Part shown: in pieces, positions 26,325 to 60,208 of the stretch
Layout of the letters: each line of letters begins with the position of its first letter
Position numbering within the stretch: the first letter of the stretch is position 1
From: Diphasiastrum complanatum
Taxonomy: Eukaryota; Streptophyta; Lycopodiopsida; Lycopodiales; Lycopodiaceae
Assembly (NCBI GenBank): GCA_029204225.1
Contig: CM055104.1
Location: 44,344,996 to 44,408,995, forward strand
Direction of reading: 5' to 3'
DNA length: 64,000 nucleotides
Position numbers and translations under genes: made by a program
Notes under the pieces: generated by a model
Databases searched by the model: none
The model's input: only the letters and a program-made list of their open reading frames with translations
What the model was told of the DNA's origin: nothing

Positions 26325-26469
26325 TCAATGTGAATAAATCTTAGTAGGTTCCTCTTCAACAAGATTATCTCTAGGAAGAGATCTCCAGCAACTCAAATTT
26401 TCTTTTGCTTTTACTAGTCCTAGGCAAACACCAAAGCATGCAAAATGCACTGCTATAAGCCCCAAATAC
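26325..26469 (-). CDS. Exon 8 (last) of the membrane-protein gene
   Basis: Acceptor TTTCAG, then 145 bases ending in TGA at 26325-26327. It encodes [20 protein letters not shown], a last membrane segment, then a charged cytosolic-looking tail with EEEP ending KIYSH. The start agrees with the family's WYxxxAxxHxxCxxxxxLV segment. Confidence 0.9.
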
Positions 26470-59800: not shown

Positions 59801-60208
59801 CTCTTCACCTGCCAAATAGATCTACCAAGCCATTTGTTCAATTATTTCCAGTGTCCAAAAACGTCTTATAAAGAAATAACATACTCACTGAGTATAAAAA
59901 TAGAAGACGGAGGGGCCATCCGTGATGAAATTATAGAGAAGAAGAGGCAGCAGGTACACAAATGCCAGAGCACGAAATGCCAGCAGCCATCCCGGATGCA
60001 ATTTCCCCCCACATGCCATCCATAATTCTTCACAATTCGGCTTCTCAGCAATCATGTTCTTGATGTCTTGCCCCACGCTAGGGTTTGTTGTTGGCTTACT
60101 ATTACCATCGTACCTGACAATGAGAAGCACAGCTCCAACGGCAAGAACCGCAACCTCCACGATGCATAGCAGGAGCGGCCAGCGATCCAATATACCCATA
60201 AATTCCAT
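26325..60208 (-). CDS. Split host gene: multi-pass membrane protein, eight exons, 345 residues, 33.9 kb
   Basis: Deduced exons, 5' to 3': 60208-59889, 59090-59057, 58594-58352, 47444-47355, 29364-29299, 29074-28983, 28353-28306, 26469-26325. Every intron is GT-AG, phases agree at all junctions, and the total is 1038 bases including the stop. The product has about seven hydrophobic segments (near residues 10-31, 73-94, 99-125, 202-220, 235-250, 258-280, 293-317) and a polar loop at about 128-192. It belongs to an uncharacterised plant membrane-protein family (Arabidopsis AT1G10660 and AT5G62960 are the kind I have in mind); I recall a distant link to Drosophila rolling stone but cannot check it. 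Conserved blocks lie in order: [79 protein letters not shown]. Introns are 798, 462, 10907, 17990, 224, 629 and 1836 bp. Coding parts look undamaged, so the gene is probably functional. The molecular role is unknown. Confidence 0.9.
26470..28305 (-). other. Intron 7 of the membrane-protein gene
   Basis: 1836 bp, GTAAGT to TTTCAG. I see no transposon domain, LTR border or other gene within it. It is the longest intron here that looks free of recognisable mobile elements. Confidence 0.6.
28306..28353 (-). CDS. Exon 7 of the membrane-protein gene
   Basis: Forty-eight bases between acceptor CAATACAG and donor GTAAGT. They encode [15 protein letters not shown] and two bases of Trp, joining in frame to exon 6 as LQWWPYPFLD. 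A near-exact match to the family's WPYPFLDLSxPxAPLW block. Confidence 0.94.
28983..29074 (-). CDS. Exon 6 of the membrane-protein gene
   Basis: Ninety-two bases between acceptor TTATGGCAG and donor GTAAAA. They encode [20 protein letters not shown] and [10 protein letters not shown] plus two bases of Trp. This is the family's strongest block (FPWFR, then FVLWT, then FQWxxH). Confidence 0.94.
29299..29364 (-). CDS. Exon 5 of the membrane-protein gene
   Basis: Twenty-two codons, phase 0 at both ends, between acceptor ATTTTCAG and donor GTGAGA. They encode [20 protein letters not shown] and SM, matching the family block N-M-H-S/G-x-N-A-x-x-L-x-G-x. Confidence 0.92.
29727..30010. repeat. Imperfect tandem duplication in intron 4
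   Basis: Two units (about 29727-29852 and 29853-30010) both begin ATAAAGATCCTATGC. They share AGAAGAATGACATCACAA, GCCAGATAGAAATGCTG and TCATTT-AAAGCACTAA. The second unit is longer by about 30 bases. It lies just downstream of the exon-5 acceptor in genomic coordinates, inside intron 4. Confidence 0.9.
30206..32098 (-). mobile_element. Older Copia element, downstream part (RT, RNase H, 3' LTR)
   Basis: Minus-strand Copia RT (31.4-32.1 kb, including an [11 protein letters not shown] block and a YVDD catalytic motif) and RNase H (30.97-31.37 kb) are followed by a polypurine tract (30823-30835) and an LTR. The LTR starts TGTTGGAATT at 30822 and runs to about 30206. The RT is interrupted at 32094-32098, where the younger element is inserted; its other half resumes at 37718. 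Broken, with several breaks besides that insertion. The 5' LTR was not found. Confidence 0.85.
32099..32877 (-). repeat. 3' LTR of the nested Copia element
   Basis: 779 bp, TGTCGCGG to TCTGACA in plus-strand reading. It aligns along its length with 36928-37717. The length difference is mainly a 10-base indel in the T/C-rich part near 32705. Confidence 0.96.
36928..37717 (-). repeat. 5' LTR of the nested Copia element
   Basis: 790 bp, TGTCGCGG to TCTGACA in plus-strand reading. It is directly preceded (lower coordinates) by the reverse complement of TGGTATCAGAGCC, the Met-tRNA primer-binding site. Confidence 0.96.
37718..40139 (-). mobile_element. Older Copia element, upstream part (gag, protease, integrase)
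   Basis: Minus strand: gag C-terminal part with a zinc knuckle (39.72-40.13 kb), protease region (39.3-39.7 kb), GAG-pre-integrase and integrase (38.3-39.3 kb) and the integrase-RT connection (37.72-38.3 kb). It continues in the piece at 30.2-32.1 kb across the nested insertion. The N-terminal gag and the 5' LTR are missing beyond about 40139, where the sequence changes character. Broken and internally rearranged. Confidence 0.85.
40140..45212 (-). mobile_element. Large non-coding repeat with a primer-binding site (possible LARD-type element)
   Basis: Five kilobases without coding potential. Near the right end (about 45194-45212) the minus strand carries tggtatcagagcaagg, a Met-tRNA primer-binding site, so this could be the leader of a minus-strand LTR element whose LTR lies above 45212. 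The part at 44050-44290 matches the repeat at 12.7-14.3 kb in inverse orientation. No polyprotein block was found, which would fit a large non-autonomous derivative. An older LTR was inserted into it at 41673. Boundaries are uncertain. Confidence 0.45.
41673..42103. repeat. Solo LTR with 5-bp target-site duplication
   Basis: 431 bp starting TGTTAGAAGTAA and ending TTTCCTACA, flanked by identical atatt on both sides (41668-41672 and 42104-42108). No primer-binding site or polypurine tract adjoins and no internal domain is present. This is the expected structure after recombination between the two LTRs of an element. The TTTCTCTCTCC stretch and a TTGTATATGG run near the right end suggest plus orientation. 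No second copy was seen here. Confidence 0.85.
45430..46280 (+). mobile_element. Gypsy-like LTR/leader remnant
   Basis: Contains an (ATG/GAT)n run encoding an acidic stretch (45694-45725). It also contains GACATGTAC, TATATGCCTTTTGGCAT and ACATTAATAAAG, followed by a (TTCT)n tract (46136-46157). The same set of landmarks occurs at 48.2-48.4 kb and 52.84-52.95 kb, next to chromodomain Gypsy sequence. Structure is too decayed to set borders. Confidence 0.5.
45694..45725. repeat. (GAT)n trinucleotide repeat
   Basis: About ten ATG/GAT/TGA units within the Gypsy-like remnant. In one frame it encodes poly-Asp. Confidence 0.95.
46281..46958. other. Intron 4 sequence, nothing recognised
   Basis: No repeat border or protein block seen. 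A 72-codon minus-strand frame near 46742-46960 has no similarity to the host protein's missing parts, all of which are accounted for elsewhere. Confidence 0.5.
46959..47215. repeat. Imperfect tandem duplication beside exon 4
   Basis: Units at 46959-47096 and 47097-47215 share GCCAACTTTT-ACATACC, AGGTCA-TGGATC and AAAACCATAGTC-T blocks in the same order. Divergence is clearly higher than in the 12.3-kb duplication, so this one is older. It lies about 140 bases inside intron 4 from the exon-4 donor. Confidence 0.85.
47355..47444 (-). CDS. Exon 4 of the membrane-protein gene
   Basis: Thirty codons, phase 0 at both ends, between acceptor TTTTGGCAG and donor GTGCGT. They encode [20 protein letters not shown] and then [10 protein letters not shown], matching the family's L-T-D-x-V-F/Y-W membrane segment. 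The exon lies 10.9 kb from exon 3 and 18 kb from exon 5. Confidence 0.92.
48040..48120. other. CpG-rich palindromic patch
   Basis: Within AT-rich intron 3 lies a sequence with a perfect GGATCGCGATCC palindrome, an ATCGCGCGAT palindrome framed by GTTCC and GGAAC, and several more CG dinucleotides. No coding frame or known site explains it. Confidence 0.6.
48121..48600 (+). mobile_element. Gypsy-like LTR/leader remnant, second copy
   Basis: Shares GACATGTACTTCGTCGTATA and the ACATTGATAAAG landmark with 45.43-46.28 kb and 52.84-52.95 kb. A GAT/GAC-rich acidic stretch (48340-48400) follows, like that at 45.7 kb, with an AHRE-like segment in one frame. Broken. Confidence 0.45.
48700..48890 (+). 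mobile_element. LINE-like reverse transcriptase tail (Cys-His motif)
   Basis: The plus strand reads [17 protein letters not shown] and, after a break, [20 protein letters not shown] and CPIYYEI. The R-x-C-x2-C-x(9-12)-H-F-x4-C-P-x-Y pattern is the zinc-finger-like end found in many plant non-LTR (jockey/RTE-like) elements and related reverse transcriptases. No RT core is attached. One in-frame stop lies between the two parts. It is cut by an LTR start at 48894. Confidence 0.5.
48894..48960 (+). repeat. Start of chromodomain-Gypsy LTR, cut off
   Basis: TGTCATGCCCAC, then TATCCCGTAAGGA-GTCAGTAGGC, CCTACCTCGACC and CGTAAATTAATTA, matching the LTR start at 52112. It stops near 48960, where minus-strand Copia sequence begins. 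This indicates that the Copia copy inserted into the 5' LTR. Confidence 0.8.
48961..50725 (-). mobile_element. Copia fragment, integrase end to RT/RNase H
   Basis: Minus strand: the end of integrase (an [14 protein letters not shown] block near 50690), the [18 protein letters not shown] block (near 50600), the connection region, and RT with [12 protein letters not shown] and the YVDD motif (49.4-49.7 kb), followed by the RT end toward 49.0 kb. The [12 protein letters not shown] block is nearly the same as in the plus-strand element at 53.3-57.4 kb, so the two are one family in opposite orientations. Broken, several breaks; LTRs not seen. Confidence 0.85.
50760..52960 (+). mobile_element. Chromodomain Ty3/Gypsy (chromovirus) remnant with 3' LTR
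   Basis: Plus strand: the end of the integrase core (50.78-51.2 kb, with the [19 protein letters not shown] block), the C-terminal integrase region, and a chromodomain (about 51.54-51.66 kb) with [11 protein letters not shown] and [19 protein letters not shown]. The polypurine tract AAAAAAGGGGTGGAAG lies at 52093-52109 and the LTR begins TGTCATGCCC at 52112. The LTR end is near 52960, after a (TTCT)n tract. RT and upstream domains are absent. Broken, many breaks. Confidence 0.85.
52961..53329. other. Intron 3 sequence, nothing recognised
   Basis: A stretch with repeated TT/CA-rich phrases such as CATTGTTGCC and TCGTTGCCCTC. It has no protein block or clear LTR border and is possibly LTR-derived. 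Confidence 0.4.
53736..53748 (+). other. Primer-binding site (Met-tRNA type) of the 53.3-57.4 kb element
   Basis: TGGTATCAGAG directly follows the LTR end TCTGACA. It is the 3' end complement of plant initiator tRNA-Met, as used by Copia elements. Confidence 0.85.
53785..53813. repeat. (GA)n microsatellite in a Copia leader
   Basis: About 14 GA units between the primer-binding site and gag of the 53.3-57.4 kb element. Confidence 0.95.
57373..58351. other. Intron 3 sequence next to exon 3, nothing recognised
   Basis: AT-rich unique-looking sequence between the Copia 3' LTR and the exon-3 donor. No protein blocks, LTR ends or simple repeats. It probably represents ancestral intron sequence. 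Confidence 0.5.
58352..58594 (-). CDS. Exon 3 of the membrane-protein gene
   Basis: 81 codons between acceptor GAGAAACAG and donor GTTTCT at 58351. It encodes the end of the third membrane segment ([13 protein letters not shown]), then a charged Ser/Arg/Glu-rich loop ([15 protein letters not shown] and on to DEAGY-like and SSSDFQRKN parts) and the start of the next conserved block (STMQTIFQ). The loop is the least conserved part of this family. The start is less certain than the end: a second acceptor at 58553 would also give an open frame. Confidence 0.8.
59057..59090 (-). CDS. Exon 2 of the membrane-protein gene (34-base microexon)
   Basis: After an acceptor TTTGGACAG it reads G-TGG-ACA and so on, giving [11 protein letters not shown], the continuation of FYFYTQ into the conserved QWTFxL block. 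The favoured donor is GTCTGT at 59056. An open frame continues further, so other donors (for example at 59006) are possible. The favoured one is chosen because the resulting protein (YFG then [10 protein letters not shown]) aligns best with the family's third membrane segment. Confidence 0.75.
59889..60208 (-). CDS. Exon 1 of the membrane-protein gene
   Basis: It runs from the ATG at 60208 to a GTGAGT donor at 59888. It encodes residues 1-106 and two bases of residue 107: [16 protein letters not shown], a first membrane segment, a polar stretch with Cys ([17 protein letters not shown]), then [15 protein letters not shown] and FYFYTQ. This ATG is chosen because it opens the frame carrying the family blocks. 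The frame continues upstream only as non-homologous sequence. Confidence 0.93.

Follow-up and report, generated by a model that had tools for sequence, protein, structure and literature searches.

PMC1794564 tabulates Arabidopsis At1g10660, At2g47115 and At5g62960 together, as an expressed-protein family whose members are candidate divergent seven-transmembrane receptors. The lipid enzymes AIG1 and ADTRP, which together with TMEM164 (PDB 9lw1) and LhaT form the ATGY superfamily, are described in PMC8123165 as carrying a conserved threonine and histidine (T43 and H134 in AIG1, T47 and H131 in ADTRP). At the level of gene architecture, PMC9477723 reports 17,745 introns longer than 10 kb and 706 genes longer than 100 kb in Ceratopteris richardii, naming transposon insertion into introns as the cause; and PMC9516828 treats gaps near duplicates as one sign of false duplications, with haploid read depth or single-copy k-mers as a further criterion. 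Here we examine a 33,884-bp gene in a stretch of 64,000 nt of Diphasiastrum complanatum (GCA_029204225.1, CM055104.1:44,344,996-44,408,995, forward strand, on chromosome 13), hereafter the window, whose numbering is used throughout. By comparing it with a collinear twin locus, with its protein relatives and with known structures, we find the gene to be intact and consider it likely that the window copy is an allele of an annotated gene on chromosome 11, O6H91_11G021000.

The gene was rebuilt from the window DNA by joining eight exons on the minus strand, from position 60208 to 26325, into an open frame of 345 residues: exon 1 with the start codon (59889-60208, 320 bp), exon 2 (59057-59090, 34 bp), exon 3 (58352-58594, 243 bp), exon 4 (47355-47444, 90 bp), exon 5 (29299-29364, 66 bp), exon 6 (28983-29074, 92 bp), exon 7 (28306-28353, 48 bp) and exon 8 (26325-26469, 145 bp with the stop codon). 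All seven donors are GT and all seven acceptors AG. Introns 1 to 7 measure 798, 462, 10,907, 17,990, 224, 629 and 1,836 bp, the two long ones being intron 3 (47445-58351) and intron 4 (29365-47354); the coding sequence amounts to 1,038 bp and introns to 96.9% of the locus. A first-pass annotation, made from the letters of the window, had proposed just such a model, with GT-AG borders, introns of 10.9 and 18.0 kb, later exons of 34 to 243 bases and about 97% intron, and the rebuilt gene bears it out in each of these respects.

At E <= 0.01 the joined protein matched 132 proteins, and 120 of these were listed. Among the matches listed, the best outside D. complanatum is from Marchantia (E 6.7e-76, 43% identical across 93% of the query), and others, from Selaginella, gymnosperms and angiosperms, with Brassicaceae relatives among them, align over most of the length, as expected of members of the plant rolling stone-like family; most carry names such as 'uncharacterized' or 'transmembrane protein'. 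An alignment of 65 of the listed matches reveals invariant residues common to the window protein and its plant relatives, such as W108, H235 and W283-P284-Y285. In the same alignment the eight-residue windows around the splice junctions show gaps of 0 to 0.6% at all seven junctions; two of the seven also contain alignment columns (10 in one, 1 in the other) opened by insertions in other rows. The homology of the joined protein and the conservation of the junctions rule out splicing by chance. As the first-pass annotation had claimed, the sequence evidence supports a genuine host gene that is intact and belongs to a plant membrane-protein family; its product, by its predicted features, is a seven-helix membrane protein of 345 residues in the rolling stone-like family.

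This gene is already known. The top match of the joined protein is O6H91_11G021000, likewise of D. complanatum and of 345 residues, sited on chromosome 11 (63,309,652 bases). The two proteins differ at residues 6 and 179 only (I6 and S179 in the window copy, L6 and A179 on chromosome 11), and both differences are predicted by the chromosome 11 DNA; because the annotated protein differs only where that DNA differs, its annotation must use the same exons. All eight exons of the chromosome 11 twin have therefore been found by public annotation, contrary to the expectation that a standard gene finder would call fragments or mask the locus away. Further or processed paralogues were not seen, a first-look protein search of the genome giving only two exon sets at E <= 10, which is a lower bound.

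The likeness extends to the whole window (1-64000), which aligns in order with chromosome 11 at 10798066-10858667, 306 of the 60,222 aligned bases being substituted (0.5%); the 3,616 window bases lacking a counterpart fall in three blocks of 2,095, 1,347 and 174 bp. The largest block (8811-10905) is present on chromosome 13 and absent from the twin, and a reverse-transcriptase (RVT_1) frame at 10569-11243 on the minus strand crosses its right edge. The left end of the chromosome 13 contig that holds the window falls in the interval 44319029-44319400, and its right end is at 44408995, which is window base 64000; runs of N flank it on both sides, the right one of 10,000 bases beginning at the base after the window, and the left one observed in samples. 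Leftward of the window, a stretch of 9.9 kb matches chromosome 11 at 99.7%, and another 6.2 kb matches at 100% except for a 671-bp insertion; between these two matches (L030 6201-9842 against chromosome 11 at 10773062-10783066) chromosome 11 is by position about 6.4 kb longer. The comparison covers about 80 of the roughly 90 kb, leaving out 5 kb of chromosome 13 adjoining the window and the 6.4-kb stretch of chromosome 11. Among ten sample pairs from the two chromosomes, nine gave no alignment, and the tenth, which aligns, sits inside the contig. The contigs past both N runs also have near-identical twins (99% and 100%), elsewhere on chromosome 13.

Assembly gaps at both ends and collinearity with a second place are marks of a retained haplotig, and the chromosome 13 contig shows both. 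Given the collinear twin, the gap-bounded contig and the twinned neighbours, we therefore favour a haplotig that was kept in the assembly and put on the wrong scaffold: the contig would represent the other haplotype of the locus on chromosome 11, joined into chromosome 13 with a run of N on either side. Gene structure, homology, the twin and the N runs are direct observations; from them we infer that allelic status, taken alone, is probable, and that the chromosome 11 locus is better read as the other allele than as a second gene. A recent segmental duplication, in which chromosome 13 received a copy of roughly 90 kb of chromosome 11 and the plant was left with two intact loci, is doubtful. 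It would account for a frame and splice sites that are intact in both copies, for a twin on a different chromosome-size contig and for several larger insertions or deletions between the copies; but neither chromosome 13 junction is assembled, both neighbouring contigs are likewise twinned, and a divergence of 0.5% suits alleles. The false-duplication pairs described in PMC9516828 share one scaffold, whereas the present pair spans two. Weighing against the haplotig, the assembly is smaller than the flow-cytometric 1C value (as given in PMC4059668).

The existence of two loci also raises the question of whether the window copy might be a duplicate of the chromosome 11 gene that is silent or in decay, an outcome that the first-pass annotation had named as one that would overturn it. 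The second intact locus is indeed present and speaks for this reading; but silence of either copy has no support, and with zero stops, zero frameshifts, all 14 splice dinucleotides kept and only 3 substitutions in 1,038 coding bases between the copies, decay is very improbable. Repeat matches across the genome were often paired at equal or near-equal score between one unplaced contig (among C997, C989, C314, C2512, C2614 and C2191) and one chromosome, a hint that retained haplotigs are perhaps common in this assembly; the lists of genome matches are incomplete, one list leaving out the query's own location.

The two long introns probably owe their size to Copia insertions, including a nested pair in intron 4. 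Intron 3 holds a Copia element on the plus strand, antisense to the gene (53384-57372), with long terminal repeats (LTRs) at 53384-53736 and 57001-57372 whose similarity is 88% when gaps are counted and 93% over the ungapped pieces, and with a gag frame at 54377-54907. In intron 4, a stretch with Copia domain matches on the minus strand (31432-39757) is an older Copia remnant split by an inner element (32099-37717, minus strand), whose LTRs (32099-32878 and 36928-37718) are 94.7% alike and which is flanked by CGACC. Intron 4 also contains a dispersed repeat with many genome copies (40201-45605, about 5.0 of 5.4 kb covered). The first-pass claim that most of both introns is retroelement DNA holds for intron 4, where about 13.3 of 18.0 kb belongs to the Copia-domain stretch or the dispersed repeat; in intron 3, one Copia element of about 4.0 kb and about 0.9 kb of related fragments were identified in 10.9 kb. 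Both Copia elements lie within sequence shared with chromosome 11, except for one LTR of the inner element, which is removed there by the replacement of 1,347 bp (31681-33027) with 148 bp; because they are sited in sequence common to both copies, the insertions would predate the split between them. With so many introns above 10 kb in Ceratopteris, as PMC9477723 counts them, the intron sizes seen here are unsurprising.

Other features were also observed. Within the older Copia remnant, a 257-bp unit is duplicated head-to-tail at 38844-39357, its copies about 95% alike. Outside the gene, a 640-codon open frame at 1475-3394 on the plus strand carries Copia gag, Pol_BBD and SH3 domains, and an 857-base match to eukaryotic 18S rRNA (15224-16080, minus strand, 256 bits) spans model positions 1-1831 and is therefore, as read from the match, a shortened 18S-like stretch.

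As to function, we propose that the protein would be a membrane enzyme of the AIG1/TMEM164 kind, a lipid hydrolase or acyl transferase whose active pair would be Thr106 and His235. Its predicted fold resembles that of TMEM164, as in the ATGY superfamily, and among relatives Thr106 is conserved in 64 of 65 rows and His235 in all 65, at the predicted start of the third helix and in the predicted fifth helix, respectively. The Cys in the Thr106 column of relative P0077 was dropped as support, as the sequence just before it resembles a wrong gene model. The Pfam profile Far-17a_AIG1 (PF04750, cut-off 24.5 bits) gave no match at E <= 1 to the protein in its annotated form (P0001, O6H91_11G021000) and none to the genome exon by exon, and 7 of the 65 relatives matched it at E <= 1, the strongest at 7.4e-5; AIG1 or ADTRP chains were absent from the 50 VIA-align rows listed, an absence that excludes nothing. 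A sequence search of PDB structures gave four matches, the best two being MsbA-type ABC transporters. That the protein is instead a seven-helix receptor has in its favour the receptor listing of its Arabidopsis namesakes in PMC1794564 and many weak Foldseek rows that are class B G-protein-coupled receptors; we regard this as unlikely. The chances are about even that the ATGY superfamily of membrane lipid hydrolases and transacylases includes the rolling stone-like family of land plants as one of its branches, Thr106 and His235 being the putative active pair, and for the window protein itself the enzyme assignment is held more weakly than its allelic status, at similarly balanced odds. Among the papers listed, none joining the two families was noticed, which does not rule out that one exists.

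The discovery of the gene is in itself ordinary, the protein being annotated through the twin; two cautions follow: some homosporous plants normally have long introns filled with transposons, and a near-identical second locus flanked by assembly gaps calls for a haplotig check before being taken as a duplicate gene. A by-product is a putative function for a conserved plant membrane-protein family that lacks one; if it is true, a lipid-remodelling enzyme like AIG1 and TMEM164 is present across land plants, liverworts and flowering plants included.

Among described systems, the closest is O6H91_11G021000, with the same length, exons and collinear surroundings as the window gene, from which it differs at two residues, in 0.5% of aligned window bases and in its placement on chromosome 11 rather than 13. 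The plant rolling stone-like proteins of the At1g10660/At5g62960 type come next, through the Marchantia identity and shared residues given above; the link to the Arabidopsis proteins themselves is putative. Neither a slice of exon 1 nor a partial joined protein drew a Pfam match. Pfam Rost (PF21534, cut-off 26.8 bits) has no match at E <= 1 in the protein in its annotated form (P0001), and it matches 10 of 65 relatives at E <= 1; of the scores printed singly, P0046 (31.9) and P0043 (27.5) exceed the cut-off, and P0029 (26.7), P0074, P0061 and P0077 fall below it. More distantly, the window protein differs from TMEM164 in sequence (8% identity over the aligned part of the structure alignment, and the best PDB sequence match, to ABC transporters, reaches E 0.06), while sharing its fold by prediction and having a conserved Thr and a conserved His, as AIG1 and ADTRP do in the description of PMC8123165. 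In its architecture the window gene resembles those of Ceratopteris, a fern where Diphasiastrum is a lycophyte, in having introns swollen by transposons.
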